DNA of 64,000 bases, taken from positions 496,001-560,000 of the forward strand of contig JABSSW010000021.1 in NCBI GenBank assembly GCA_018902385.1, given 5' to 3'. The stretch comes from Physcia stellaris. Its lineage: Eukaryota; Ascomycota; Lecanoromycetes; Caliciales; Physciaceae. Shown here piece after piece: positions 8,034 to 39,602 of the stretch. Numbering within the stretch: the stretch's first letter is position 1; each line of letters opens with the position of its first letter. Both the position numbers and the translations under genes were made by a program. The notes under the pieces were generated by a model that saw only the letters and a list, made by a program, of their open reading frames with translations, was not told the origin of the DNA and searched no databases.

Positions 8034-8624
8034 TGGGTGGTTCTCGAATGCGACGCTTACATTTAATATTTACAAGGAAATTGTGGGCTGAGAATAAGAA
8101 TCCAGTAGTAGCAGGATACAGTAAACCTTCGTTATAGGGAGTCGGAATTTCGAGGCTTTGAAGTCCTTGTAACTCGAGACTTCTTATAAGTCAGATTTTC
8201 ACATCTCAGGATTAAGCTGTAGCTCAACATTCAATTGTATAATCCTGGTGAAGCTCTAGATAATTCTAGCGAGCACAAATAGATCTTAGCATAGCCCTAA
8301 CAGAATTGTAAGAAATTGAAATCGAGCTATTATGAATTATTACACGGATTTTGCTTGATCGCGTTATAAGAAATTTCGTCAAATTTATCTAAGTTAATCC
8401 AGTACAAGAATTATTTCCTAGCGTGAGATGCACGGCTTTCGGATAAACCTGATTCCGAAACAGTCTATTTCGTATTCAGGCTAAGAATCCTGAGACAGAA
8501 CGAAAATTTTGAAAAAATTCTCAAATCAACTGTTTGATTATTATACAATTTGTCATACAAATTGAACAATTGAATCGAAAATATTGTTCATTATTGCGTA
8601 TGTTTTTCATTGACAATTACAGCT

Positions 8625-8666
8625 ATTTCATGTTTTGACACAGTGAACTTTGTCAAAACATGAAAT
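8625..8666. repeat. Perfect 16-bp inverted repeat inside the pogo-like element
   Basis: The arm 8625–8640 (ATTTCATGTTTTGACA) is the exact reverse complement of 8651–8666, with a 10-base loop. It remains perfect although the surroundings are heavily mutated. Confidence 0.85.
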
Positions 8667-8910
8667 TATCAAACGCATCATTCATCTTTACTGTTGATGT
8701 CGCTGTTGAGCAATTGTGAAAATACTTTGCAATACAAATTAATATGAAAAATGACATGAAAACTTGTTAAAAACGAATACAACGATTCGAAATCATGCGA
8801 TGTTTGACGCATTGATGTATTAACGATATGCGATAATCGTGTTCAACAACGTTAACGTGCTCAACAACGCTAATGTGAAATGCACGCTAAAAGAGTTTTT
8901 GTATATATAT

Positions 8911-8972
8911 TGCAATTGCAATAGAAATTGCAATAGAGATTGCAACAATGTTGCAATTGCAATTGCAATAAA
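8911..8972. repeat. TTGCAA/GCAATTGC short tandem motif cluster
   Basis: Overlapping copies of TTGCAATTGCAA and its one-base variants. The flanking sequence (about 8805–8960) reappears inverted at about 18,220–18,440 in the AT-rich block, with mostly C→T type differences. Confidence 0.7.
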
Positions 8973-9340
8973 ATGATTCAATCAAAAATCAATTGTCAAT
9001 TGCTTGAAAAAATGCTCGATTTTTGCGATTTGAACGTAATCATGTGTATATTCGAACGCAAAATCAACAATGTCTCAACGTATAATCGTGAATTGTCAAT
9101 AATGTGATGTTTCGTACAAAACGATGATCGTGATGATGATGACAAAATCATAATGTCAAATGAAAATGACAAAAGTTGTGATATTTGATAATTTCAACCT
9201 TAAGATAAAACGCTGTTGCAATTTGCAAGCGTTTGCCTTGTTCTCTTTATAAGTCGAAGTTTCCATGATTACATCAGAGAATCAGAATTTCGACGTTGAG
9301 CACTACTTGTAACTCGACTCTCTCTAGCAAAGGTTTACTG

Positions 9341-15424: not shown

Positions 15425-15525
15425 AGAGAAATTTAGGACTTGCTTATTAACCCAGTACAAGAATTCTTCCTTAGCGTGAGGTGCAGAGCTTGACGTCCGA
15501 GAATTAGAATTACAGCTTTATCGAT
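15425..15525 (+). repeat. Fragment homologous to the pogo-like element at 8119–9340
   Basis: Aligns by eye to about 8370–8490: AGAAATTT, then CCAGTACAAGAATT, then TAGCGTGAG and GTGCA/ATGCA blocks in the same order. It marks the left border of the AT-rich block. Confidence 0.6.
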
Positions 15526-18219
15526 AGTTGAATGATCATGATAAATTCAACGAAAATGAAAATAATCACGATGTTTTCGAGCAAAAAATTGATAATTCAA
15601 ATGAACGAATACAAAATAATTACGAAAAACAAATTCACGAATGTAAAAAATGTTTGAATTGCAAATTGTTAAAATGAAAAAATGAAAAATTGACGAAAAT
15701 GCGATTTTGATTGAAAAAATGTAAATATGTTTGAATGTCGCATAATGTATATATATGCAAATAAAAAATCAATATTTTAATGAAACGAATTTGATTGAAT
15801 GATTTAACGATTAAAATTGTAAATAAACATTTTTCATTCAAAAAATCGCGAATTCGAATCGTATAATGAACAAAAAAAAATTCGAAAACGAATGAACAAT
15901 TCGTTGATTATTTCATGATTACAAATGTTTTTTGATGCGAATGAAAATTTTCAAAATAATCGAATTGATAATTTGAAATCATTGTTAACATGTGAAATAT
16001 AACAAACAATAAACATTATTTTTTTGTTGTTGTGACAACGTTGAAAATTGATATTGAACGCAAAACAAAAAAAAAAATAATTGAAACGTTGACGAAACAA
16101 CGACGATTGTACAGAAAAATGTCAAAACAAAATCGTGACGAAATGATGTACGAATCGAAAAAAAAAAATGTTGAAAACGTCGATCGAAAAAACAAAAACG
16201 ATGTAATGATATTGACGAAACGAATAATACAAAAAGAAACGAAAAAAAAAAATGAAAAAAAAACGAAAAAAAAACGATTTCAACAAATGTTTCGACAAAT
16301 TTCTTGATTTGAAATGAAAAAAAAAACGCAACAAATCGTAAAATTGTTATTGATTAAAAAAAATTAATTTCATGTATTGATGTCGAAAATCATTTATTTC
16401 GTCGTTATCGAAAACACGATCGCACGATCACAATTAAACGTGTGTGAAATTTACGACGTGATAAAAATTCAAAAACGCGTTGAATCGTGTCAAAAATACG
16501 TTTTTCAAATTCAAAATTTCGTATTACAACTCATCGTCAAAATGTGAAAAATGAACGATTTTGTACTATGTTGAATGAAAAGCAAAAATTGAAATAAATG
16601 AAAAAAAAATTGCGAAAACGACGATTTTTGAATTAAACGAACGTGCGAAAAAAAAAATTTTCGATTTCGAAATATCAATTCACGACATGACGATCATGAA
16701 ACAACAATTGAAATGAAATGTTTGTTTTCAAATTGATTTTTTGAAAAAATTTTTTTTTCATTCACAATTGACGATGTATTGACGCGAAAAAAAAAATATG
16801 ATTTTATGAATACATGCATTATGACGTTTTATTTGAAACGATTATTTTTGACAATTGACGCAATTGTGTGAATCGTGCAATTGTCATTGTTGAAACGTTT
16901 TTTTTCGCGCAAAAACAAAACGTTTTTATTGTATTATTTTTAATTTTCGAATTGTTATCGCAAAAATTTATCGAAATACGATCGTTATAATGATTTTTTA
17001 TTTCATTCAAACATTTGTTCGTTTTTTTTCATTCATTTTGCGTCAAAAATATTCAAATATTTGTTTTTCAAATTCAAATTCATTTCAATCATGTTCATTT
17101 TCGATCGAATTTTTTTGAATAATGTGTTTCGCAAATAATTTTTTTTTGAAATTATGATATTATTGTTTAACGTTTTAACAACATCGTAAATTTCATTCAT
17201 TTCATTTAAAAAATTTCGTTTTTCATTTTGAAAAAATAATCGTAAATTTTTTTTCGTCGTTATAAATTTTATTTTTCAAAATTCAAATCATTGTTTTCGT
17301 TTTTTGCATTTGAATTCAAACGTGTCGTCGAAAACATATTCGAACAAATGAATTGAAAAAAAATCGCGATGTATGTGATCAACAACAAAAAAAACAAAAT
17401 GTACAAACGAATGATAACGACATTGTTACAAAAAAAAATCGACGAATTTTATAACAAAAAAAAAATCAAATGAAATTTGAACAAACGTTTCAAAAAAAAA
17501 AAATTTGAACAAAATACGCAAAAAAATAAACAAATTGATTCAAATTAAAAACAACAATGTTCGATAACAAAAATAAAATAATTTTTTCATAATATATTGC
17601 AAAACATATTTTGTCGAAATTTTTAATATTTTATTTTAATATTGTAAAATATTGTACGCAATCAATGACAAATATTTATAAATGTAAAAATTAATTTTTA
17701 TGTGAAAAATTTGTTGTTAATGTGATAAAAACGTTTGTTTCACGATTAAAATTCGAAACGACGATAATTTATTTCAACGACAATTTATTGTAAAAATAAA
17801 AATAACGTTTACATCATTGATTGCAAAATTTTTTTTTCGACAACGTTGTTCATTTTGCATTTCAATTGCATAACATTTTGTACGAAATCAACGACATATG
17901 TGTATGAATGTCAAAATCAAATTTCGTGTGAATAACATGTTGTTACAACGTTTAAATTGTTCGTTTTTTGACGTTTTACAAAATTCGTTATTATATTTTT
18001 AAAATTGTAATTAACATTTTTCATTATCAATCATATCGATTTTGATGTTTAACTTTTACAAACAATTGCAATTTTTTGATTTCACGAATTAACGTTGATA
18101 ATTTCACGTTTCAAAATATTCATTTTTACGTTCAAATTGCAAAAATCAAATTTTTCGTTCAAATAAATGTCGTTTGATTTTTGATTTGATTATTGTTGCA
18201 ATTACAATTGTAATTGTTC

Positions 18220-18440
18220 ATTTCAATGCAATTGCAATTGCAATTGCAATTTTTAATAAAATGTATATACAAAAAAATTTTTAGCGTGCATTTCACATTA
18301 ACGCATTTTTAAAAATTTTTGTCGTTGATTGATTACAATCATTTGTGTTATAATATTTGATCGAAATAATCGTATTCGTGAACAAAATTCAACGATTTAA
18401 TCGTCGTTTGTCGTATATCGCGTACATGTATCAACGCATG
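18220..18440 (-). repeat. Inverted diverged copy of the pogo-like element interior
   Basis: Reverse complement of this segment matches about 8805–8960: TTAATGTGAAATGCACGCTA is nearly identical in both, followed by a TTTTTGTATATA stretch and TTGCAA repeats. Where they differ, the copy here often shows T for C before T (for example acgCTaatg versus gcgTTaatg). Confidence 0.65.
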
Positions 18441-20829
18441 AATTTGTTTTATTTTTCAAAATTTTTTAATCATTGCTTATTTCAAAATAAAAAAATTTAA
18501 AAATTGTTATTTTTTTTTCAATGCGAAACTTTTTTCAACACGTAAATCACAAATTGTGAATGATCAAATTATTCAAAATCGAAAATCGAACGATTATTTT
18601 CGAATTTTCAACGCATGAACGTGTTTTATTTTTCAACGTTCGTTAATCGTTATTTATTTCAATATAAAAAAATTCAAAAATGATCAAATTTTTTCAAATG
18701 CGAAAATTTTTTAAACACGTGAATTACAAATTGTTGCGATCAAATCATTCAAAATCGAAAAATCAAATTTTCATTTTTCAATATATAATTTTTTTTTTCG
18801 TTTTTTTCATTGTTTGACATTCAAATAAAATTTTTGCGCATTATTTTTCATATAATTTTTTTTTTTTTCGTTCGCACAATTTTTTTTTTTTTGATTTTAT
18901 TGTTTCAAATTTGTCGTTATGCATTTCATTTCAATTGTAAAAATCGACGATTAAATCGTCACAATTAAAAATTATCGAAAATTTGAAATAATGTATGTTC
19001 AAAAATGAAAAAAACGAAAAATCGTTAATTGTTATCATTATCAAAACACAAACAGAAAATATTCAAACGATTTTATTATAAATTCAAAATGTACATATTT
19101 GTTTATCGATAATATATTGTTCAAAAACAATTTCATTTATCAAATTTGATTTTTATCGCGATTTTTTTGATATTTTTATTAATGTCGTTAATTTTTTTTT
19201 TCGTCGACGATTTTGTTTGACGTTCGTCAAAACAATAAAATCGATTTGCAATTGAATAATTGCGTTCGAATGACAAATTTCGTCGAAATTCAAAAAAATA
19301 AAAATGCAACGTTTTTTGTTCAATGATATTTTTACGATTTCGATCGTGATAATCAACGTGTTGTTTCACGTGATAATCAAAAAATCGATTTAAATATAAA
19401 AATATTATATTTTGTTTTTTTTAAATTTATTACATCATTGAATGATTGAATAACAAAATTTCAATTTTGAATACGTTTATCATTTTTCGAAATACGTTAA
19501 GAAAAACTTCTTTTTCGACGAAATCGATAATCATTTTTTTGTTAATAAAATTTTTCACGTAACGATCAATTATATTATTGTATTCGATGAAAAATGTTAA
19601 TAATTTATTTCATTGCGTATTCATTTACGATTTATAATTAATGAATCGATTTGATTTTTAATTTTCAATCAAATTGTCAATTTTAATTTTATCGATTTCA
19701 TAACACGTTCGTTTACGACATTTTCATTTTCGTTTACAAATCGTTTGAGCGAAACGATATCGATTTCAAAACGTTTTATTTTTTTAAATTTTTTCAAAAT
19801 TCAAATTTTTTTTTTTCGACAATTTTTTTTCAAATATCATTTATATCGATTATTTCGTTCAAATTAATTGTCGTCAATCGAACGCAACAATTTTTTTCGA
19901 TTTTTTTCAATTTGTTTCAAACACAAATTCAAAAAAAAAAAATTTCGAAATCACGTTTTTCAATGTTTTTAATGATAATCAAACAAATTTCGTGAAAATG
20001 AATATTGAAAACACAATTGCGAAAACGTTTGCAAAAAAATTAAATTTCGAATCGTCGATTTTCAAAAAAATTCGACGACGAAAAATTACTTGATGACAAA
20101 AACACAAAAAATAAATTCGTTAAAACATTTATTGAAAAATTGAACATTAAATTTTTGCAAATTGCAATGTAACGAAAAAAAAATTGACGATTTCAATGAT
20201 TTTTTCATGTGACGTTTAATTTTTTATTAAAAATAAAATTTTTCGTATTGATTTGTATTTTATTGTTTGAATTCGTTTCATTGTCAAAACGTTATACATT
20301 TACGTAAAAACGTCGAAATTATTATTTTTTTGTATTGAACGAAAATCATTTTTATCATTATTAATTCGTCAATGTTTTTTTTTTAAATTGTCAACGTTTT
20401 CACAATGAATTATCAATGTTCGTATAACATTTTTCGTTTCAGAAATAGAAATCGCTTTCATCACAAATATTGTAACGATTAATTGAATCGAATCATAATC
20501 ACGTGATTTTTCAATCGAAATAAAAATTATTTATTTTATTTTCATTCAAATTATTTTGTTTTCATTTTCAAATTTTAACACAAACGACACAAAAATAACA
20601 TTAAATTTTTGTTCACAAACATTTTTTCGATTGTATTAAATTTTTTGTTTTCATCGAAAAAAAATCAAAAAAATACGTTGAAACTTTTTCAAATTGAAAT
20701 TGTTTGTTTTTTATTAAAATTATTTTTACATTTTTTTCATTGACACAGATGAATTTTTATTTTTCAAATTGTTTGAATTTTTTTGTTTAATTGTCATTAT
20801 CGTCGAAAAAATGTTTCATTGTTTATCGA

Positions 20830-23400
20830 CATAAAGCGTACAAACGAGTTATGCAAATTGTATAAACGTTATAAATCGACTTTTTAGTCATTAAACAATG
20901 AATAACAATATTTAAGTCGATTTCGAGTCATTTAATCAACAATAACAAGTATTTAAATCAAAATAAAACGTCAAAAGTCGAAAATCAGTTGTAGAAATTC
21001 GACATCAATTGAAAAAATCTCAATTAAGTTTAGCGTTTTCGCGTTTTTGATGTTCGTTGTCAAAAAAAATCAAAAAAATTAACGAAAACGCGTAACGACG
21101 TCGTTATAGAATACAATCTATAAAAAAATATTTATCGTTTTCTTTACAAAAAGTTTATTTTCTTATTGAATTAAACTAATCTTGACGAAAAACATCAAAG
21201 TTTTGATGCAACTTTTTCGCACATTGCACATCAATCAAGAACTTGATATGATTTTTGTTTATGTAATCAAAGTTGTAAAGTTTAATGAAAGAAATTCAAT
21301 ATTGTAACGTTTGTTAAATTCTGACGTGAACGCATCGAATTATTGAAATGCGAAATTTTGATCGCATACAAATTGATGAATTCGAAATTCGATGATTCAA
21401 ACATCAACAACAACATCAATTTCAATTTCATATCAATTCAATCACGAAAATTTCAACGAATTTCAACAAATCATGCAATTGACGTTGAATTTAAATTTTT
21501 CTATTACGACGCGTTCGCGTGATGCAGCAAATCGTCATGTCAAAAAACGAGAAAAACGAAATGTTCTTCAGAAACTTACTTCTACTTCTATTTTTACTTT
21601 TATTTTTATTTCGACTTTTGCATCGATCGAAATCAACGCTTTCTACGAATGTCATTCAATGACTGTTACATTTCAAACATTCGTCGAGTTTCGAGAATCT
21701 CATTACACAATCAATGATCGAAATGAAATGACGTTGAATAAACAAAAGTCTGAAATTTATTCGATTTCACAATCAACTCATATTCAGAATTCATTGATTA
21801 AAGCACGTTTCATGTTTGACGTTGCATTTGATGTTTCAAAAATTAAAACACATACGCGTTTTCAAATGAAATCACAGCAAAAACAGCTGCAAAAAAATCA
21901 AAAAGTTTGAAAAAATCAAATTTTTCAATACTTTTGACGATTGAAACGATTTGAAATCATACGAATCAATGAAGAACTTTTTTCGAATCTCGAATATCGA
22001 TTAAAACTGTCTGAAAAAACTTTGTTTCAAAAGCATTTTCGTTTTCAATCTTGAACGAAACGTTCTGTATGAAATGATTATGCTCATTGCAAATTCAAAA
22101 AGTATTACTCTTTTCTTTTTATCGCTGTTCGAGTCAACGATGAGAACGAAATTCGCTTGCATATGAGAAAGAAAATAATCAGACATAACAATCGTTTTCT
22201 TTTTAAATCGTTGACGAAATACGTTTGCAATGCAATGCAACGAAAAAAATGAAAACTTGATTTTTCACACAATATTTCAACTCGCGAAGAAATTCAACTT
22301 GCAAAAATATCAAGCGAACGAAAAAGACGAACGAAAAATAAATGCGAAAACAACAAAAATAGAAAGAAAAAAGCATTCAGCTTGATCAAACGAGTCGAAT
22401 GATTCTGATGAGTCGAACGATACATATATGATCGACGAATCGATCGATTCTGACAATCGTTCTGACGACGACGAAAAAATGCAATGAAACGAATTGATTG
22501 AATTGAAAATCGAAACAGACGAGCATAAATGAAAACAAAAAAAAAAACTTTACTCGAATATGTCATGATCGATATAATTTTCACGAATTGTTTTTTTCAA
22601 ATCGAATCGATTTTCATCAAATGTTTTATCAAATGTTTCATCAAATGTTTCATCAAATGTTTCAACAAATGTTTTATCGAATGTTTCATCGAATGTCTCA
22701 TCGAATGTCTTCATGCGCGAATCACTTTCGCAAACATACATCGATGCAAAGATTGCAAATTCGAGCTTTTGAAATCTTAATAAGTCAGAAAATCTCGTTG
22801 AAGAAACAGATTCGATTTGTATGACATATTCTCGATATCTTCGTCGCAAATGATCAGATCAGTCAGAATTTTGAGATCAGCATATGTACATAGTATTCAG
22901 AATGATCAATATCAAAACAAATACATTTTGATATTTTATTGCGTTATATTCAATCGAGAATCATGATATGTTTCGAAGATGTGATCAAATGATTGCAATT
23001 TTTGCAATTCAGACTTCATGTTTGACATTCAAATTTTCATTCAGATTTTCAAGTTGATTTGCGACATTCTTTTTTGATTTGATTAATTCAAAATCTATTT
23101 GACGTTTTATCATCGAACGTAATGCGTCATACAGTTGTTTCGCATCTTGCATTTCAATCAACAATCATTTATGATTTTCACTTATTTAATCAAAATTGTA
23201 AAACAAAATGAGCGCATTTCAACGTCGTAAAAATAACAAAAATCGATTCATTATCGCAATAGTTTTGAAATTTCGAAAATTACGTCGTTGTCAATTTTGT
23301 GTTCGTTTCGAATTTTGCAATTTTATCAGATTTGACTTTAACTTTGAGATTTTCCGACAAAGTTTTTTTAAAAAAACTTCCGAATCTACTTGTCAACGTT
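20830..23400. repeat. Less mutated island inside the AT-rich block
   Basis: CT and AG dinucleotides return in numbers (for example in 21,541–21,600 and 22,021–22,320) while CC and GG stay almost absent. A 172-codon plus frame at 21,392–21,910 and Ser/Thr-rich frames survive here, but nothing is recognisable. It probably came from a different or younger repeat, or was exposed to fewer mutation cycles. Confidence 0.6.
22609..22710. repeat. 12-bp minisatellite, about 8 copies
   Basis: Head-to-tail units of ATGTTTCATCAA with variants at two positions (C/T and A/G). On the minus strand it encodes a T-F-D-E/K tetrapeptide repeat within an open frame of 99 codons (22,550–22,849). Unit variants toward the right end carry GA instead of AA, so the copies diverged in order. 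Confidence 0.85.
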
Positions 23401-25859
23401 ATGAAAAAAATAACTTTATTTTTGAAAATTTCACGTATTTTTCACATAAAAAGATGTAATTTATGATATAATACGTGTATCATACATTACATAATAATTA
23501 AATAAAAAAAATGCTTTTGATCATTAAATGACTTAAATACGTAAATGATTTGTTTAATTGATTTAAATTTTGTTATTCATTGCTCAAAGTTGATTCAATT
23601 AATTCAAAATCGATTTAAATACAGTCATTTTCGATTCAAAATTACGAAAAAACAATGTTTTTGACTAATCGATTAATCGATTCGAAATCGAATTTAAGCG
23701 CACAAATCAATAAAAACATTTTTTCGACAATCGTTTTTTTGTTTTTCATAATTTGACAAACAATCAAATCGTTTCGTATCATAATCATTGTCGTTTTTTC
23801 AATATGAAACGATTTTTTCAAAACGTCGTGAAATTTAATTAATGTTCATTTCATGTTGTCATAAAATTTCAATTCATCAACGATTCATTATCGAATCGAA
23901 TTTTTTTGTTGCAATTTTATTTGCGTAAATTATCATGACGATTATTAAATAACTCGATTTTATCATTGCAATTTACGATATTCGAATTGCAATTAAAAAT
24001 TTCAACGTTCAACACGCGATCAATATTTAGCGAAAAAATCGTTACGTTTGCAACACATGTGACGTTGTTTTTTGAAAAAAAAACGTCAAAACAAAACATT
24101 TTTTAATTTATATCAACGATCGATTTTGAAAATGCGAATATTGTAATCGTTTTTTCGACGTCGAAATCATATGAACAAACATATATTAATTCATCAAAAA
24201 AAAAATGAAATTTCAATTTATCGTTTTCAACAAAATTGCATATGTATGTAATATCGACGTGTCAATGTCGCAATTGTATTTACGACATATCGTTTTTCAA
24301 AAATTGTTATAAAAATTTCAAACAAAACATAATCGTCGTTTTTTCAAAATTTTTTGTTCGTTTTGTGACGTTTTCATGTTTTTGAACGAATCGAAATGAT
24401 TTATTTTCGACGAAATTTTGCAATACGATTTTTGCATTGTGTTTCATTAACGTTTGCATAATAAATTCGAAATCAACGAAAAGCGTGTCGTAATCGTATG
24501 CGATTCATGTAAAAAACATTCACGATTTATGTTTCGAATAAAATTTTGATTTGACGAATTAATGTTTTTTTTTCATCGATTTCGAATTTTTTTATCGTTT
24601 TTGAAATTCATGACGAATTTGAAAAAAACACAAAATGTTGACAATTTTCGAAATAATTGAATTATTTACAAAATCGTTTCAAATAAATTGTCACAATTTA
24701 TATTTTGTTCAATTTAATTCACGTTTACGTCAAAATTTCATGTACGTTTTCAAAAATTCGCGAATTTTGATTTTTTATTCGAATATTATCGAAAATTTTT
24801 TTCAATTATTTTTTCAAATTTTCGATAAAAATCAAAATGCACAAAATTTCACAATTGCAACAAATTGATTGAAAATTCACAATCGATTTTTACAAAATTA
24901 TATTGTTTCGATTATCGACATTTTCATTGTCAAATTTTCAATTTTCGAAACGTTCGATTCAAATGAAAAAAAATCATGTTACAAATTGAATTTGATCGTA
25001 AAAATCGATCAATATGATTCGAAAATTCATAATAAAAATTTTCGTTTCGATCGATTTTTGAAAAACAAAACATAATCAATGACGATCGTTAATATTCAAA
25101 AACGACAAAAATTTTAAAATTCGCATATTTTCTTGATTATATTTTTACGAAATAAAACATTTTCGAAAAAACGAATTTGTTCATTTTAAAATTGTTTTTA
25201 AAAAAAACGCACAATACAAATTTAATTGAATCGTTTCGCATTTTCGTGACGATCATTATTAAACAACATGAATGTACATGCGTGCGAAAATTTTTCGCAT
25301 TTTTCAAAATATTAACAAATTGATGATCGAACGAAAAAAACGTCAAATGATTGAACGTTTGTTCACGACGAAATTATTAAAACAAAACGTTTATGAAATT
25401 CACGCAATTATTAACGAAAATTTAACAACAATGATTTCAATTCAATTTCGAATCGATGTTATTTATTGAATACAAACAAAATAAAAAATTAACATTATCA
25501 TGAAAACAACATGTCGATTTCAATTGTTTTTCATCACAATTTTTTTCGAAAAATAATTTGAATACGTCGAAATTTTTGTCAACACAAACAATCGCGACAT
25601 CATTTCGAATAATCGATTTTGAAAAATTGTAATATATTATCATTTTCGATGAAAAGCATTTAAAATTTATTTTTTGCGAAATTCGAAAATATTCGATTTC
25701 GAAAAATTGAAAAAAATGATAAAACGAATGAAATTTCAATTAAAAAACGTTATTTATATTTATGTTTCATTTTGAATTCAAAAATTCATATTTCAAATAA
25801 TCGTTGAAAATTTTATTCGAACAAATGTTTCGAACAAAAACAAAAAATTTGAATTACAC

Positions 25860-26340
25860 GTTTTAATTATAAAACATCAAATTCACACATGTCGTTCGAA
25901 CATGTGTCGCAAAAAATTGATTTTCGAAACACGATACAAAAATAAATTTTTTCAATCATTGTTATTCGTAATTGAAATCGTGAATAATAATCAACGTTAC
26001 ATTTACAAACAATTTAAAAAAAAATCGTTGAATTTTTTCATATAACGTTTAAATGTTTTTGATTTGAAACGCACACATGAATATTCAATACATCACGAAA
26101 ATTTATTTTGTCGTTTATGTCAACAAATATGTTATCAAAACAAAATTCAACGAATTGTACAATTTATCAATTCAAAACGTCATCAAAAAACATTTAATGA
26201 TTCGAAAAATGAATTTCATAAAAATCATGATGTTAATGTTAAATTACGAAATATTTCGATGCAATAAAATTGTAAAATATTTCGATACGACGTTGTCGAA
26301 AAAACGATTCGTTTTCGTGAAATTTTTTGACAATTAAAAA
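25860..26340 (+). pseudogene. Helitron Rep-side remnant (region between Rep and helicase)
   Basis: Two plus-strand fragments. The first, from about 25,873, reads KHQIHTCRSNMC, the 'H-x-x-H-x-C…C' segment typical downstream of the Helitron Rep domain. The second, in the frame of 26,077, begins MNIQYI and continues with a V-N-K-Y-V segment and 'K-H-L-M-I-R-K-M', matching the 'H-x-N-I-Q…Y-x-x-K-Y' and 'H-x-x-x-R-R-M' blocks of fungal Helitron proteins. A Rep HUH motif upstream is not recognisable. The frame is broken by stops, so this is a dead copy. The identification rests on motif order and my knowledge of the family. Confidence 0.7.
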
Positions 26341-27146
26341 AAAATTTACTTGAACAAAAAATAAAAAAAAATGAAAAATTTGATTTTTTTTACAAAAATT
26401 CAATCGAAAAATATTTCGTTCGTTTTTCAAATACGTTTTACGATCAATTAACGTATTTTGATTATTATTCTCAATACAATTTAACAAAATCGATTTTAAA
26501 TTTTCGACATGAAATTATAAATGATGTAAAAAACATTGTAAAAAAAAAAAAAACAAATACGATTTTTTTATTGACATTTTATTCAACATGATTTAATTAT
26601 ATTAACATGTTTTGATTCGAAATATCGAACGACGATTAACAAACGACAAAACGTTTTTTTACGAAAAATTTTTCATGATTCGATCATGACGAACAAAAAA
26701 CGAAATTCGAAAAATTATATCGAATTTCACAATTTCATGTTATCGATATCATTTCATGACGTTTTATTCAAACGAATATCGAAATTTACATTTTTGAATA
26801 ATCGTTCAAATTATTCGACGCGTCGTAAAAATTAACATTTTTTATTTAAAAATCGTACATCGTTTGTTTTTTGAAATATTACAAAATCAAAACGATTGCG
26901 TTTATCAAAGACTTTTTGAAATGTAAATCAAAATTCGATCGATTTTAATATTCGACGACAATTTAAATTTAAATGAAAATCAATACGTAATATATTAACG
27001 AATTATCAACAATTTTTTTTTCGTTTACATTTCGAAAATTTCGAAACACAAACTTTTTCGTTACGAATTAAAAAAAAACGAAAAAAAAATTTTTATTACA
27101 CATTTTCGTGACATGATGCAATGATCGTAAATTAAAAATTTTAAAA

Positions 27147-28222
27147 ATGATTTCGATCGATATTGTCGCAAAAAATGTAAAAAAAAAAACAATTTACAAC
27201 AATTTGCATATCAATTTTCAAAAAAATTCAAATCATGAATTATTGTTGTTCGATATATTTCGCATGAAAAAAACGATGAAAAATTTCAAAAAAATCAAAA
27301 TTTTTATTATTGATGAAATTTTCATAATTAACAATGAAATGTTCAATTTTGTTTCGAAATTGTTCGTCAAAATACACAAAAATGTATTTGCGTTTGAAAA
27401 TTTTCATGTTATTGTTTTTGACGATTTTTTGCAATTATTTTCAATTCGAAATCGTCAAATTTTTCATTTTTTTGTTTGAAAAATTTTCATTTCGTTGTTT
27501 TTAAAACGTTCGAAAAAACACAATAACGATTCGAAATTTGAACGTTTTTTAAAAACAATTCGATTCGACAAAATCATTGACGAAATCATGAATATTTTTC
27601 ATCGAAAAAAAAACAAAAATTTCGAATCGAAAATTTCATTCATATGTGTATTTTTTTTTCATTTTCGAAAAAACGAAATTTTCCGTTTGAACGCGTTATT
27701 ATTACAACGAATTTGCAATTTCATTGTTGTCGTTCACAAAATTAAAAATAAAAAACGAAACGAGAAATTAACAAAATTAATTTTCAAACAATTCGTCAAA
27801 AAAAACAATTTGTTCAATAAAATTGTAATGATTTTTGAAACACGAATGATGTTTTTAAAAAACAATTTCATATCACGAAATTTGATCAACGACAATTGCG
27901 AATTGATTACAAAAATGAACGACAAAAATTTTTTTACGATCGTTTTTTCATTGATCGAACGCATAGAAATTAAATTATTTTTTTCGACGAAATATGATTA
28001 TTAATTTTTCGTATTTAGAAATTGTATGTAATTTTTCACACAAATTACAAAATTTTATATGAAATTTTTTACATTCGAATTCAATTTTCGATTTTAAACG
28101 TTTTCGTTTTGATCGTTTACAAAATTCAATCGTTTATTATAATCGACATTTTTATCAATTTTGACAACAACATGTTCGTTTCAAATCACGTTTACACGAC
28201 ATTAAACAAAATTCAACGATGA
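27147..28222 (+). pseudogene. Helitron PIF1-like helicase remnant
   Basis: Three open pieces in order. 27,147–27,479 carries a Walker B-like IIDEIFI and then VIVFDDFLQL, the degenerate form of PIF1 motif 'V-x-F-G-D-F-x-Q-L-P'. 27,495–28,004 is in the same frame after a single TGA at 27,477–27,479 and carries the 'V-M-I-F-E-T-R-M-M-F-L-K-N-N' and 'R-N-L-I-N-D' segments matching 'G-A-R-V-M-x-x-x-N…G-L-V-N-G'. 28,022–28,222, in another frame, has RIQFSILNVFVLIVYKIQS, the mutated 'Q-F-P-L…A-x-T-V-H-K-x-Q-G' motif, and an N-N-M-F…Y-T-T-L-N-K segment matching 'Y-V-A-L-S-R'. Typical glycines and prolines are replaced as expected if GG and CC were mutated. No function can remain. Confidence 0.8.
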
Positions 28223-31200
28223 AATCAAATGTTCATTTTCGTCGTATACAAAAAAATTTTCAAAATGAACGAAAAAACAATATCGAAATATGAACGTTTA
28301 AAAAATATTGTCAAAAAAATGTTTGAAAAACAATTTTTCGAATTTGTTTAACGTTTGAATGAAATCGCAATTTTCATTTTTGACGAATCGTTTTCAATTT
28401 TTTCAACTTTTCATTAATTTCGTTATTGTTTAATTTTTTCATTTTAAATTTTGTTTTATCATTAATACGAAACACATTTATGTTTCATTAAATTTCAAAT
28501 TTTTGATTTGCGATTTTGATACAAATTTGAACGTAATGAAACAAATTTGTCGAAAAAACAAATTTCAAAACGAATTATTACAATATGTGAACATCAATAT
28601 TCAAATGCGAAATTGTTTCATTCATAATCATTTTTATGTAACAATGTTTAAAATCACGAATAAACACAATTTTTACATTTTTATATTTGAATTGCATATG
28701 TTGTCAAACGATTTTTCGCAAACAATCATTAATCACAAATGAAAAAAAATTTTATTAAATAAAATTAAATTCGATTAAAATTCATGTTATGTTTCAAAAT
28801 TGATGTCAATCGATTGCGATTTACGAAATTTGATTATTTATTTATTTATTTCGCGATATTTTTTTCATTCAATTTTTCGTTTTTTTATCATTTTTAATTC
28901 GCGTTTTGTTTTTTTTGCATTCATTTTTTTCATTCAATCAATTTTTCGCATTTTTCAAATTTTTCGCAACATTTACAAATTGTTTCGTCGTTGTTTCATC
29001 GCGTTCAATGTTTGTTTTTCAATTCATTTCGCGAAAATTCGTATCAATTAATCAATATTACGATACGATTTGAATACGAATTTAATTCGTTTGAAATTTT
29101 CATGAATTGTTTCGTCGAATTTCTATAACAAAATTCAAAAAATTTCGATTTGAAAAGTTTCGTTTTTTACGAAATTTATGTTCAAAAATCAATGTTACGA
29201 AATTATTTTAATTTTTGAACGTATTACGTTTAATCAAATCAAATATACGAAACATGCGCAATCAAAATCAGAAAACAAACATTGAAAATGATTGAAAAAC
29301 GACGAAACAATTTGATGTTGTTGCGAAATTGCGAAAATTCGATTATTTGATCGACATGTTGTTGTGTGAATTATTTTTTCATATGAAAAATACATGTATA
29401 TGATCGTTAATTTCGACATGTCATAAATAATTTGTAATTGACGTGTGATAATCGTCGTCGTCGTCGATAAAATCGAATTTATTTGAAATTTTGTCATTTT
29501 CGCAAAAAAAATTTTTTTGCAAAATTGATTTTCGCGACATTATTGTTTAATTAAATCAAAATCAAAAATCAATTTTGCGTTTTTTCGTTTTTTCAAAAAA
29601 ATGCAATTTGAATCAAATGTTACGATTATGCGCATTTTTCGAATTCGATTGCAATTAAAATTTACAAATGTTTCAATTCGTACGTTGTAAAATTTTCAAA
29701 AAATAATGACGTATTGTTCGAAAAGTTGTGTGAATACGAAATATTGATTGTTCGATTGTTGAAATTTCGAATTTCAAAAAAAAAATTTTCGACATTCGAT
29801 TTCAAAAATTTCGAAAAAAAAATTTCAAATTGTTTTAAAATGAAATGAATTAATTTTGAGAAAATAAATATAACATATCATTTTGTTTTTAATATTTTTT
29901 ATGAAATCAATTGATTTTTCATTTTTAATTTGATTTTGACATTGATACGAAACATGTTTATGTTTTACGAATTTTTCGAAATCAAATTTGTAATCGTGAT
30001 GAAAAATTAAATTTAATAAAACAAATGATCGCGAAACAATTCGAATTTGAATATAACGATTTTTTTAAAATATGTTTGTTGATGAAATTTATTCAAAACG
30101 TGTGCGTTATTTTAATTTCGTATTATTATTAATATTTTCAGCAAACATATTTCGATTTTCATAAATTTTTATACGAAAAAATTGTAAATAATGTGTCAAT
30201 TTCAATTCTTAAATGTAAATACAAAATGTTCAAATATTTCGTTCAAACTGTTGTGAATTGAAACGAATAAATTTTTTCAACAAAAAATATTTTCTTTTTC
30301 TTTTTATGTCGTATTCGAATTCTGAAATTCTGTTTGTAAAATATTCAGATTTTTTTGTAATTATCGAAAATCTTTTTAATATCATTATTTTTTTGAAATC
30401 AAATTTGTACGATTGTAATGATTTATCAAAACGAATCGTAAATTTAACGTATGTAAAATTGATTTTATCGAATTTTGAATAAAATAATTTTTTTTAATCG
30501 CATTGTAATTGAAAATAAATTTTCGATTGTTTGTATTGTTCATATTTATTCGATCAATAATTTATTAACGTGTTTTCACGATCACATTTGATTGCAATTT
30601 TTTTTTTTTTATGCATTACGATATTTAATCAAACGAAATTTTGAATTATTTGTGAATTGAATTTTTATCGTATCAATAAAATGTGTATTAATTGAATCAA
30701 TAAATTATAATGAAATCGCGATTTTCATCAATATCGCGTAAATAAATAAAATTACGAAAAATCGAATAGCACAATTTGACGACGAAATAATTAAAATTTC
30801 GTTTTTTTTTCGATCGTTTTCAATTAATCAATTTTTATGACACGCGTTCGATGATTTTGCATTTTGCGAATCGAATATTCGTCGATTTGACGCATTTTCA
30901 ACAATTGCAAACGTTAATCATTCAAATACGCAAATTTATTTGAATTTTAAAAAACGATTGTTTTAACGTCAAAAAAATCGTTGAAAATTCAATATTGTCG
31001 TTTTGCAATCGATACGCGATCACAAAAAAAAAACAAAATCAATTTCGTTTTTTTTCGATGCGTTCAAGCACGACGTCGTTTCGAAATTTGCGAAAATTGC
31101 GTATTCAAACACAAAACGTTGAATTGTTTATTTAATAAATGTTTTCAAATTTTAACGTGTAAAATATTGAAATTTTTTCAAATTCGATGCGTGTTCGATT

Positions 31201-32424
31201 CGAAATCGTGAAAATAATATTTCAAATTATCGTCACAAACGTAAAATTCGTTGACGAAAACAAAAAAATTAAAATTTCGATCAAAAATGATGAAAATTAT
31301 TTTGTCGCAAATTTGTTTTTTTCGCGACGATTATTCAACAAACGTCGTCGATTGTTATTTTTAATAACGATTGCAACAAATGATCGCGCGCGATTCAATA
31401 AAAACGATATCGACGACGAATTATTAAATAATCGTTCGAACGTTGTCAACGATTTATTATTATTTTTGTTTCAAAACGAAAAAAAAAACGAAAACGAAAA
31501 TTTTTAATTTGAACAACATCATGACGATTACGACGTTAAATTCGATTTTGATATTGAATTTGATTCAAATAATATTGTTTTTATTATCGAAAAAACAAAA
31601 TCGACAAAAACATTTTTTTCAAAACGAAATAAATTTTGAATTTCAATTTCGCGACGATCAATCGTCGTAAAAAAAAATTTATTTTCGTTTTTTGAATGTT
31701 TTCGATTCGAATAAATGCGTAAAATTTACGCGACGTCGAATCGAATTGTGACGAAAAAAAAAACGAAAAAAAAAAAAATCGAAATGAAAAAATAAATATG
31801 TCGAATGAAAAAATAAAATCATATTTTAAAAATTTTTGTATTAAAAAACGATTTTATTGCAAAAATCGTTATATACGATATTGCAAAAAAATTTCAACAA
31901 TTTTTGAAAAATTTATTTTGATTTTTTTTGTCATAAACAATTTCATTGTTTGTTTTTTTTTTTAATTTTTGCAAAATTTATCGAATTGATACGAATAAAC
32001 ACATTATTTCATTGATTCAACAAAAACAAAATTTTATTGTTTAAAATTCAATTGATTTTATCAAACAAATGTTTTTTCAATATCATGTTTTGACACAAAA
32101 AATCTATGAAATGATTTCGATTGTACATATTTTTCGTTTTTATTTTTCGAATTAATTACGTTTTAACGAATTTTCAATCAACATAAATGAATTGTACGAA
32201 TATTTTTTTTTTCATTATAACAATCATTGATTCAAATTTCAAAATTGATGCACATCAATTGCAATCAAATTGATTTTTTCATTCATTTTGTTTCAAATCA
32301 TGATGTTGACAAAATGAAATTGATGCAAATATCGACGAAAATAAATTTTATTTCGATATCAATTTTATCAATTTTAACTCTTTGCTTTTTCCGCTTAGAA
32401 CGCTGTTGCGTATTTCACGTCAAT
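28223..32424. other. AT-rich decayed DNA downstream of the helicase remnant
   Basis: Numerous short frames. One on the plus strand at 30,981–31,211 is Cys-rich (C-x2-C-x6-… pattern with CENC and several later Cys) and might be the relic of a zinc-binding protein carried by the Helitron. Otherwise I see nothing interpretable. Confidence 0.4.
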
Positions 32425-32497: not shown

Positions 32498-33671
32498 ATG
32501 AGTTATTGGAGTCTGTTAGCTGTGCTACTCCAAATTACTTTCGACGTAGGCGTCGGACTTCTCCTTTTCAAGCGATCAAGTGGAGTACGCAGGTCCGAAT
32601 CCAAATATTCTTCTCCGACAAAGCGAAGCCTAATAAGGTTACCGAGTGAAGATGGGTTGGCAATACTGCGCCAGAATGAAGAGACCACACCAGAGCTACA
32701 GCGATTGGAAAGCAGCTTTCGGAAGCCGAGTCTTTCGGTGTGTAACTTGTGGAAGCATTCTCGTGATCCGTAAATGGAGGGGGTGTTTTGTCAGCTGACC
32801 ATCTTCGCAGCAGGACCAAAGCTCATTCTTCCAAAAACTCTCCTACGATGTCCGTAAGATGATTTACTGCGAGATCCTCGTAGCCAGGGATGCGGTTCGA
32901 CCCAGAGTGTTTGTTCCGAGACATGGAACTTCATTTATCATACCTGGTTACGAGGTCGCCGTTGGCATCGATGCTTCAATACTTCGAAGCTGCCGGCTGG
33001 CGTCCAAGGAAGCTACATGGATCTTGTACCAACTCAATGAGATCGTGTTCACGAACGCAGAAGAGATAGAAGACTTTCGTTCAGGGGTCTACCTATGGGA
33101 TCTGTTGTTGCAGAACAAAAGCGCAATGTGGAACTCCAGCCCTTCTATCATTCAAGATTTAATCCTAATGGAAGGCTCGCCATGCTTGGAAAGCTCCACT
33201 TTATGTTCAAGGATTTCCTCGAATGGCCTGGATTAGATTCCGACGAGCTGTCAGCGGCCCCACGTCCAACCAGGGCATCCATAACACACGCTTGGTCCCG
33301 CCTTCTGGTTCGGAATCCCGATACAAGCCCCAGTGAGCGTTTATCTTTCCCGGCTTTGCGGGAGCTGGGACTTGACTTTAAAAATTTCAACTTACAGGAA
33401 AACGAAGGTGTCGCGGTATGCTGAATGAGCTAATCGGCTCGCCAAAGGAAATACTGCAGCTGATAACCACCAGGTTAAAGTATTTACCGACATTTTCAGG
33501 AATTCAAAAAGGCTTCAGCATTTGTATATCATTGGGATTCGGCACAAGCCTACACTTCGCAAATTCAAGAGTGGATTGCTTCCAAAAGGCGGGTCGTTCA
33601 GGGTCTTGGAATGGACATTAGATGGCAATCAGTGGAAATGGCAGATAAAGAAAGATTGGGATAAGAATTGA
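32498..33671 (+). CDS. 2EXR/DUF7730-like fungal protein, paralog D (about 328 aa; one doubtful junction)
   Basis: Exon 1, 32498–32737, encodes a hydrophobic N-terminus (MSYWSLLAVLLQITFDVGVG). Exon 2 from 32814 begins DQSSFFQKLSYDVRKMIYCE, then 'A-S-I-L-R-S-C-R'. Later exons are in another frame: one ending at 33415 with FNPNGRLAMLGKLHFMF and 'L-S-F-P-A-L', then, after a 58-bp intron, 33474–33671 with LQHLYIIGIR and a WQIKKDWDKN end. The frame change between exon 2 and exon 3 needs either an intron at 33087–33139 (weak GTCTAC donor, phase 0) or a frameshift; the other paralogs have a phase-1 intron here. So it may be functional or a young pseudogene. The key LP of the signature is LS here. Confidence 0.65.
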
Positions 33672-37168: not shown

Positions 37169-38581
37169 TTATGCCACCCCCTCCGCCCACCCAACCCACC
37201 GCCTCACAACCTCATCCACAGCCCTAACCCCCTCCCTCGACCCCTCGACCTCAAACCACTCCCTATGCTCCTTCCCACACGCCTCACAGCTCCTCTTGAC
37301 CCTCCTTTCCGCAAGCTCAATATGTATCAACCTCTCCACCTTATGCACGTGCGGGACTTTATGCGGCTGCGTCTCCGACGCCCTCCCAGGCCCCCGAGGC
37401 CCAGCTGAAGGCGATGGTAAAGGCGATGGCGAGGGAGAAGAGGGGTGATAGGGGTAGAAGCGCACGAGGGAGAGGTTATACCCGCACTGTCTACTCCACT
37501 CGTTCATGCGGCGTTGGACGTTGGATGCGCGCCCGATTTTCAGCAGAAGGGTGTTTGGGGCTTTGGGTTGCTGGGTGGTGCTGCTGCCTCTGCGGCGTGG
37601 GGAGGGGGTGGTGAGGAGGGTGGATACGGCGTTTGGGGAGGTGGAAGTGGAGGTGGAGTCGTTGGGGTTGAGCCAGAAGATGTAGATCCAGCCTTCTTCG
37701 TCGTGCGGCGAGACGGGCTTTGCGAGCTCGGCAAGGAGCGCGGATGTTGTTTGGGGTGAGAGGGTGGCAGGGATCAGCGCGAGGAGGTTTTGCGTGTGGG
37801 AGGATGTGCGGCGGATGTGGTTTGGAAATGGAGCTGGGGGTGTCAATGGGGGATGGGAGCTAGTGGAGTGTCGTCCGGGGCTTGCAGGCATCTGCGTTGA
37901 TGGCGGACGGACGCTGGATGGCAGGGAAGACGTTGTGGGAACTGAGTTGGCGGGCTTTTGTGGTCGGGTTTTAGCTGGTGGCGTGTTTTCATATCCAGCA
38001 CTGACGCAGCAGAGAGATTCCCAGAATCCTGGTTTTCGCTGCCTCTCTCTTCTGGGCGGTTTCTCGGAAGTATTTCCAGCAACCGGCAACGCCATTAGCG
38101 GTCCTTGCACCTTTTGCCAGTTTTGTGGCAATGTCTCCTTCCTAACAGGTCTTGAAGCCTGCTTCGTCTTCTTTCTGCTCCCACTTCCTTGCCCATCTGG
38201 CCCTTGGACATCCATCACACCAAGACGATCGACTAAGGTATCAATACTCGTTCTTTCCGTTAACGGAAATAAAGTAGTATTATTACCATTCCTACGGTCC
38301 GGGGTCCCATTTTGACCACCTTGCAATGTTGCAGCTTGATCTTTGTGCTGCCAGCAGAAGAACGCAGCGGCACCCTCATGCTCGTCGTCACCTGGTAGGA
38401 CAGCTAATACGCCATCCTTGGTTCGCCGGTTGAGTTTCTTCAATGGAGACGAGCCAGACGAGGTTGCGAGATCCCGACGACACGGCCGGCCGCTTTCTGT
38501 GATACCTTTGCAGGTTGTCGCAGGGTTCTTGCTATCGCTACGTGAAATCAGAGATTCGGGTGTGTTGGGTATGAAAGGCAT
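37169..38581 (-). CDS. GIY-YIG / T5orf172-like (DUF1766, Mug113-like) protein, 470 aa
   Basis: Single exon. I start at the ATG at 38581 (MPFIPNTPESL), since the upstream in-frame extension has no family character. The N-terminus has a CxnC zinc-binding-like part (CKGITESGRPCRRDL, later FFCWQHKD). A long Ser/Pro-rich linker follows. The C-terminal domain, about residues 290–465, has GWIYIFWL (the GIY-like strand), LLKIGRASNVQRRMNEWSRQ (the K-I-G-x-T/A-x-x-x-x-R-x-x-x-W core), and HKVERLIHIELAERR, followed by CEACGKEHREWFE. This is the T5orf172/DUF1766 fold; the fission yeast relative is Mug113, up-regulated in meiosis. Nuclease activity is not proven for this group. Confidence 0.85.
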   Translation of the reverse strand: MPFIPNTPESLISRSDSKNPATTCKGITESGRPCRRDLATSSGSSPLKKLNRRTKDGVLAVLPGDDEHEGAAAFFCWQHKDQAATLQGGQNGTPDRRNGNNTTLFPLTERTSIDTLVDRLGVMDVQGPDGQGSGSRKKTKQASRPVRKETLPQNWQKVQGPLMALPVAGNTSEKPPRRERQRKPGFWESLCCVSAGYENTPPAKTRPQKPANSVPTTSSLPSSVRPPSTQMPASPGRHSTSSHPPLTPPAPFPNHIRRTSSHTQNLLALIPATLSPQTTSALLAELAKPVSPHDEEGWIYIFWLNPNDSTSTSTSPNAVSTLLTTPSPRRRGSSTTQQPKAPNTLLLKIGRASNVQRRMNEWSRQCGYNLSLVRFYPYHPSSPSPSPLPSPSAGPRGPGRASETQPHKVPHVHKVERLIHIELAERRVKRSCEACGKEHREWFEVEGSREGVRAVDEVVRRWVGWAEGVA

Positions 38582-39602
38582 GATTGATTTCAGGTTTTTG
38601 CCTTCAGCTTCGAAAACGATTCGGGAAAATATACAAAGAGTATAGCTCAAATCGAACAAAAACAATGGTATTGTTCAGAAATATGAAAGAAAATAAAAGG
38701 ACTTGTTTGGTGAACAATGGCCAAAGCAGACCACCAACGAAGGAGAGTGACTAGTCTAGGGTTCCATATCACGCGAATGTGGAAAGACTATGAATCAAGG
38801 TAAGTAGGAGAATGAAGAGTCAGTGAATTTGATGACTCTGTGCTGTTACTTGGGAGAGGCGACTGATGCCTGGTGCGTGCAGAATCCGGTGGCTGGGAAC
38901 GTGGCGACAGCGTGGCTCGCGCCTCACAAACTACAGATAATAACTTCCGACTATCTTCTGAGATGAGATCACGCTGGATGGGATTTGAGGCGACGCTGAT
39001 GTGAATTGTAAAACTCTCGTTGGTGGTTTCATAAAGTAGAAGCACTTTGTTTTCGATGGTGATGCCTTCGAGTCACACCCTTGTCCATTCCATGTAAGCG
39101 CTCAAACTCCCGGGCGGCTCGCGGGTGCCATCGCGCCGAAATGCCGCCTGTTTCGGATCGTTCAGTTGCCCGCGGAGGAGCAAGGTAAGGTCAAGATTCT
39201 GGCCAAGGATAAATATAGGCGTGTAGGGATAACGAAAGTTTAATACGTTGATTGTTTTTACAAAAAATCTATGCTGAATTGAAGGCTTGAAAAATAAAAT
39301 TGCTGCCCCCCAGTACAGAAAACCTCCCAGCCAGCTCTCTTTGGAGAATCCCTTTCCGAAGCATAATCCAGATGCTCCCCAGCGCCAGAACCTGTTGCTG
39401 ATTGTCAGTTACCCAAGCACCCTATGCCAGTTACCCAAGCACCCTATGCTTCCCGATGCCCGATGCCCAATCCCAGGACCAGTATGTACCAGAGCGCCAT
39501 TTTATCCTACTCGGCTTTGTTTTTGTTGTCATTTCATCCCTTTCTCCCATGGCCGCTCCTCCCCTGCGTGATACTGCTTCCCTGTTGTTACGTCGCGGTA
39601 GA
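38582..39602. other. Intergenic between two minus-strand genes
   Basis: No supported gene. It holds the promoter of the GIY-YIG gene and a direct repeat 'GCACCCTATGC…GCACCCTATGC' near 39,417–39,450. Confidence 0.4.

Follow-up and report, generated by a model that had tools for sequence, protein, structure and literature searches.

Here, we describe a stretch of 64,000 nucleotides from the ascomycete Physcia stellaris (the window; C21:496001-560000 of assembly GCA_018902385.1, C21 being contig JABSSW010000021.1), within which lies a block of repeated DNA that has lost nearly every cytosine followed by a pyrimidine (CpY, that is, CpC or CpT). The assembly comprises 43.97 Mb in 147 contigs, and all results come from this one genome; contigs are labelled C and fetched genomic loci L, each with a number, and L005 is the window's own copy of a 2.2-kb repeat. 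The DNA flanking the block is ordinary and gene-bearing, with a G+C (GC) content of 48% and observed/expected (O/E) ratios of 0.98 for CC and 1.06 for CT. We consider it probable, with a probability of roughly 0.8, that the block is repeated DNA mutated by an active, repeat-targeted cytosine mutator resembling repeat-induced point mutation (RIP), which takes CpC first and CpT next and almost spares CpA and CpG. The features of the window are collected in Table 1.

Table 1. Features of the window, with positions counted from its first nucleotide (ORF, open reading frame)
Feature	Position	Strand	Basis or remark
CpY-hypermutated block, matching the extent of the repeated (mobile) DNA	15447..32377	.	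composition and copies
Left part of large Helitron-like element	15447..20803	+	copies on C31, C42, C46, C26, C2, C71 and others
Later insertion inside the Helitron-like element	20804..23729	.	alignments of L013, L036 and L038
2.2-kb repeat, within the insertion	21104..23394	.	incompletely saturated, with CpC almost exhausted and roughly half of CpT remaining
Right part of the same Helitron-like element	23730..32377	+	homologous copies, including less mutated L050
1.26-kb nested repeat	28557..29820	.	own copies on C62, C12, C11, C42, C55 and others
Second short mutated element, partly related	8400..9220 (limits approximate)	.	composition
Gene with T5orf172/MUG113 domain, beside the mutated block	37172-38674		profile search of 9 of 14 long ORFs
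HET-domain gene and NPHP3_N/NACHT-type gene			profile search of 9 of 14 long ORFs

Judged from its copies, the block consists of nested mobile DNA, namely a Helitron-like element with later insertions. The best-shared portion of the left part is 15,482-18,184, and the shared sequence starts slightly to the left of the depleted block, near 15,447. In L050, the less mutated homologue of the right part, a Helitron_like_N (PF14214) fragment was found (E 5.6e-8), the only Pfam match among the eight ORF pieces searched of the 22 listed, the other seven giving none. A near-complete second copy of the block (C80:78079-94432, 90-94% identical) lacks the later insertion at this point, with 20,803 directly adjoining 23,730, and holds an intact 2.2-kb repeat of its own at the place matching window position 19,964. 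The 1.26-kb repeat is almost CpY-free (CC 0, GG 0, CT 2, and AG 5 in 28,001-30,000). All 26 Helitron-like loci fetched are poor in CC and GG (O/E at most 0.21 and 0.26, respectively), with CT O/E between 0.02 and 0.57, and no intact copy of the element was present among them; since the window accounts for two of the loci and a single C80 copy for several more, they do not represent independent events. In L029, the less mutated left end of the Helitron-like element reads GGGTTAGGGTTA, like a short telomere-type repeat, which perhaps suggests a subtelomeric origin; an rDNA-looking ORF in L029 prompted an Rfam search of L029 and L051, which gave no matches, as did an Rfam search of the window. 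The second short element is related to the large one at its left end and in an internal portion, and within 8,501-9,180 it has CC+GG = 0, CT+AG = 24, CA+TG = 126, and CG = 27. The intact 2.2-kb repeat carries an open frame of 503 aa on the minus strand (L010:1965-3476), and a Pfam search with two of the ten ORFs of its L020 copy returned no families.

The dinucleotide composition of the block is extreme. From the letters alone, the first-pass annotation had reported that CC, CT, AG, and GG were absent from 16,921-17,760 and that cytosine survived almost only before A or G; a recount gives exactly 0 for each of the four in that interval, and a full tally over 15,480-32,380 agrees with the wider statement, with CC 4 (O/E 0.02), GG 1 (0.00), CT 103 (0.13), and AG 108 (0.15) against the retained CA 1082 (1.35), CG 899 (3.75), TG 928 (1.27), and TC 1083 (1.37). 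Over 15,482-32,377, where the GC content is 24%, CC+GG was observed 4 times and CT+AG 210 times, far below the minima of 423 and 1441 reached among 500 mononucleotide shuffles, so that normal CC and CT counts, which would have spoken against hypermutation, are not what the tally contains. The leftover CT and AG are concentrated in 20,001-24,000 (156 of 211), a stretch that holds the less saturated nested insertion.

The loss follows the limits of the repeats. At the left edge, CC+GG+CT+AG per 50 bases drops from 14 at 15,451 to 0 at 15,601, and at the right edge it climbs from 0 at 32,301 to 12 at 32,501, the mutated zone and the repeat ending at the same place; similarly, in L027, L034, and L035 the switch from normal DNA to DNA nearly without CC takes one or two 250-base bins. 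When searched against the genome, the 1.5-kb unmutated flank on each side of the block and 1.4 kb of unmutated DNA next to L027 matched only themselves (one of one candidates each). Mutation is thus confined to repeated DNA, and the adjoining single-copy flanks are spared.

Because the 2.2-kb repeat survives in both intact and ruined copies, the changes themselves could be read. In a genome search with 20,400-23,800, the 40 candidates scored of 292 gave 75 matched pieces, among them at least 28 near-full-length copies, and 20 loci were fetched, one being the window. Thirteen of these have normal composition and six are ruined (L005-L008, L012, and L014, each with 0-2 CC and 0-2 GG), while L023, whose copy begins at a contig end, was left out of the composition tally and behaves as intact in alignment. 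Unmutated relatives are therefore not already devoid of CC and CT: the intact L010 (GC 45%) has CC 98, GG 107, and CT 127. Ruined copies were aligned to L010, and C-to-T changes on both strands were tabulated by the following base. In L005, 184/187 CpC, 136/248 CpT, 8/299 CpA, and 3/217 CpG sites had changed, and L006 is much alike (180/185, 148/242, 7/295, and 1/216, in the same order). CpT is closer to exhaustion in L007 (CpC 181/183, CpT 219/242, CpA 21/296, CpG 6/214) and L008 (182/186, 231/238, 58/296, 17/217). The more diverged L012 (157/183, 162/248, 29/303, 28/192) and L014 (170/185, 187/237, 24/287, 28/216) show CpC then CpT with more background, and CpG is not below CpA there. Five intact-versus-intact comparisons lack the pattern, save for a slight CpC lean in L015 against L016 (CpC 23/202, CpT 10/252, CpA 2/301, CpG 7/214).

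The target order is CpC > CpT >> CpA > CpG. Relative to CpT, the per-site hazard in L005 is 5.2 for CpC (a value measured with CpC saturated), 0.034 for CpA, and 0.018 for CpG, and CpC appears to be mutated first, with CpT next. Beside the lightly mutated L015, 1.4 kb of another repeat (L015:3760-5164, 73 matched pieces) is low in CC (O/E 0.28) and GG (0.27) at CT 1.03, AG 1.17, and TC 1.60, a composition that perhaps marks the process at an early point, when only CpC is mutated. These spectra support the RIP-like process with an unusual target that the first-pass annotation had put forward, and they place the changes at CpC and CpT rather than mainly at CpA. Its proposal that the target is CpY on both strands stands as to the two dinucleotides and the likeness of the strands, and has to be amended in that CpC and CpT are not equal.

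The same signature is carried by AT-rich DNA across the genome. Counting, on both strands, dinucleotides flanked on either side by 11 A/T bases, we found CA 2389 times against 830 for the reversed AC, CT 192 times against 1728 for TC, CC 3 times, and CG at 1112 sites against 277 sites for GC; a portion of the CT matches consists of a few recurring sequences. Combined with 21 CA matches found locally over 95.7 kb, these counts suggest that about a quarter of the genome might be affected, a rough guess that may be well off. Classical CpA-directed RIP is rejected on this excess of CA and on the CpA and CpC counts of L005. Decay of methylated CpG is likewise rejected: the CpG depletion expected of it is not what is seen, given the CpG O/E of 3.75 in the block and the three CpG sites changed in L005.

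Turning to possible enzymes, a PF00145 search of the genome gave four matches, read as three genes, on C3, C5, and C6. The C3 gene matches structure entry 9bap (E 2e-181), the molecule of which is named 'DNA (cytosine-5-)-methyltransferase', and we take this gene to be DIM-2-like. The C5 and C6 genes are shorter, are interrupted by introns, share 40% identity with each other in the methyltransferase part and 34% in the N-terminal part (C5 and C3 share 27%), and carry the motifs PPCQ and EQT or EET, which we assume to be typical of RID/Masc1 and on which their class I label rests. The set can thus be read as one DIM-2-like and two RID/Masc1-like genes, the two kinds of homologue that the first-pass annotation had proposed looking for. 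Together with the HET-domain and NPHP3_N/NACHT-type genes of the window, this set indicates a filamentous ascomycete. Among NCBIfam models, the general dcm superfamily scored below its cut-off, and the one other match was far weaker. As regards precedents, RIP in Neurospora uses the Dnmt1-class RID, with DIM-2 serving repeats already in heterochromatin and reported to favour CpT (PMC13297926). In Zymoseptoria, Dim2 acts on transposons, where it methylates CG, followed by CA and CC; during vegetative growth it also promotes C-to-T change, at CpA (PMC8016269). Context variation inside the DIM-2 family therefore has precedent (PMC13297926, PMC8016269).

Such an enzyme might also have acted passively, with the DIM-2-like protein methylating CpC and CpT in heterochromatic repeats and slow deamination of 5-methylcytosine removing them. 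The presence of the gene, the reported CpT preference in Neurospora, and the vegetative mutation in Zymoseptoria (although at CpA) lend this account some credit, yet we regard it as unlikely, since slow decay should give many more changes of other kinds: L005 differs from L010 by 348 changes, of which 331 are C:G-to-T:A and only 17 are of all other kinds, and in L006 the figures are 336 and 10. Furthermore, the 20 copies fall mostly into an intact and a ruined class, with L015 lightly mutated.

The choice of site is governed chiefly by the base after the cytosine, whereas the base before it matters little, the rates in L005 being 0.36, 0.32, 0.35, and 0.35 after A, C, G, and T, respectively. 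The strands are equally mutated (CpT 64/124 and 72/124 in L005). The APOBEC/AID family reads the base 5′ of the C, and this context dependence leads us to reject its signature. A stand-alone cytidine deaminase of that type acting on single-stranded DNA would account for the near-exclusive C-to-T changes and their location in mobile DNA, but in the CCA triplets of L005 the first C mutates and the C before A is kept (74/75 against 1/75), and we hold this origin to be very improbable. Ultraviolet or other dipyrimidine damage fits the loss of CC and CT in so far as both are dipyrimidines; however, TpC before A or G is kept (TCA 3/84 and TCG 3/92 changed in L005) and such damage would not end at repeat limits, so we give it next to no credence and reject it. 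Equally negligible, despite the uniformly CC- and GG-poor Helitron-like loci, is a native composition, in which the elements always lacked CC and CT or came from a donor genome so composed, because CC and CT are normal in intact relatives of the nested 2.2-kb repeat and because converting ordinary DNA in silico reproduces the block. In this conversion, a single rule (CpC becomes TpC and CpT becomes TpT throughout, whichever the strand) applied to the 47-kb flanks gave GC 23.7%, CpG O/E 3.60, CA 1.48, and TA 0.33, compared with 23.8%, 3.77, 1.35, and 0.43 in the real block.

Several observations weigh against an active, repeat-targeted mutator of this kind. At least 13 of the 20 fetched 2.2-kb copies are intact, including copies that sit inside ruined DNA (L009, L011, L016, and L013), and seven (L017-L023) have no private change at all, which implies that the process lies dormant, is rare, or passes over many repeats. 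Intact copies imply that it does not act on all present-day repeats, and that it is past, rare, or confined to a particular stage, for instance the sexual cycle. The seven copies form a recent burst of the 2.2-kb repeat untouched by the mutator. The CpC:CpT hazard ratio, measured with CpC saturated, falls from 5.2 in L005 through 3.8 in L006 and 1.9 in L007 to 1.1 in L008. Nor is the sparing of CpA absolute, with 58 of 296 sites changed in L008, the most mutated copy, and the preceding base has some effect (in L007, 44/56 ACT sites were changed, compared with 176/187 of the remaining NCT sites). CpT sites mutated in both L005 and L006 number 96 against 80.9 expected; most changes look independent, and some look common by descent or preference. 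The sexual timing and the enzyme are what we infer, and the evidence is that of a single genome. Finally, canonical RIP indices are negative: under the published thresholds (TpA/ApT >1.1 and (CpA+TpG)/(ApC+GpT) <0.75; RIPper; PMC6714961), applied by script, 0 of 127 windows were flagged, and the block itself fails both, at 0.465 and 1.369. These indices stay negative because TpA is not enriched; if our reading is right, detection tools that rely on TpA/ApT and CpA may find no RIP where the DNA is saturated with it. An index of the form (CpC+CpT+GpG+ApG)/(CpA+TpG+2CpG) separates the block (0.056) from its flanks (1.046), and a CpY index of this kind could be applied to all fungal genomes.

For the RIP-like mutator that we favour, a DNA-methyltransferase-type enzyme would start the C-to-T change, the likeliest candidate being one of the two RID/Masc1-like proteins, possibly together with the DIM-2-like one, and it would act before meiosis; a RID-type enzyme with altered next-base recognition is our preferred cause. 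A fuller scenario is tentative, and we would place it below even odds: a RIP-type defence may have switched to CpY, CpC first, through a changed RID-type enzyme, perhaps a CpC-specialised paralogue, with CpT added later by a second paralogue or the DIM-2-like protein, leaving AT-rich isochores with much CpG and CpA, which go unnoticed in surveys relying on CpA indices. If the favoured RIP-like reading is right, RIP can change its target almost entirely, which means that the enzyme's next-base recognition can evolve, and this genome would offer a natural comparison for locating the residues that set it.

Compared with known systems, the process works like RIP, and canonical RIP membership is not claimed, since the CpA context fails. 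It shares with Neurospora RIP the C:G-to-T:A direction, action on both strands of repeats, sharp limits, AT-rich relics, and putative RID-like together with DIM-2-like genes. In N. crassa, however, the preference is CpA>CpT>CpG>CpC, and in Trichoderma reesei the leading contexts are CpA and CpG, with CpC again last (PMC5496416), so that the order here is nearly reversed, as the first-pass annotation had sensed in calling the pattern the opposite of the Neurospora type; TpA is not enriched. The CpT part of the pattern has precedent. CpT signatures occur in Botrytis, Sclerotinia, and Magnaporthe, along with CpA signatures, each species having one or two genes of class I (RID/Masc1) (PMC4352252), and they stand beside CpA in Anisogramma (PMC10998396), Colletotrichum truncatum (PMC6180176), and the Tad1 element of N. 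crassa (PMC2621366); in the alignments of one survey, CpT-to-TpT is called the dominant form in RIP-capable fungi (PMC7882544). CpT is prominent here as well, but CpA is spared and CpC leads, and the term 'CpC' occurs 0 times in the available text of PMC4352252. Within the portions of text available, a search of the open-licence literature returned no report of a CpC-first, CpA-spared process; the closest that it came to CpC was a double change, CpC-to-TpT, beside classical CpA mutation in Monilinia (PMC8959702).

Outside these fungi, the RIP-like C-to-T mutation of the basidiomycete Microbotryum, at TpCpG (PMC4352252), likewise affects mobile DNA in a fixed context, whereas in P. stellaris CpG is the best-kept context and the preceding base has little weight. 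Methylation induced premeiotically (MIP) in Ascobolus, where the class I methyltransferase Masc1 acts on repeats (PMC4352252, PMC13297926), methylates without mutating, unlike the process described here, which has changed the sequence itself. A kingdom-wide survey of 1,239 species obtained results that strongly suggest a common CpA preference (PMC12543289); with intact and ruined copies of one repeat side by side, the P. stellaris genome provides a clean counter-example to such a shared preference.

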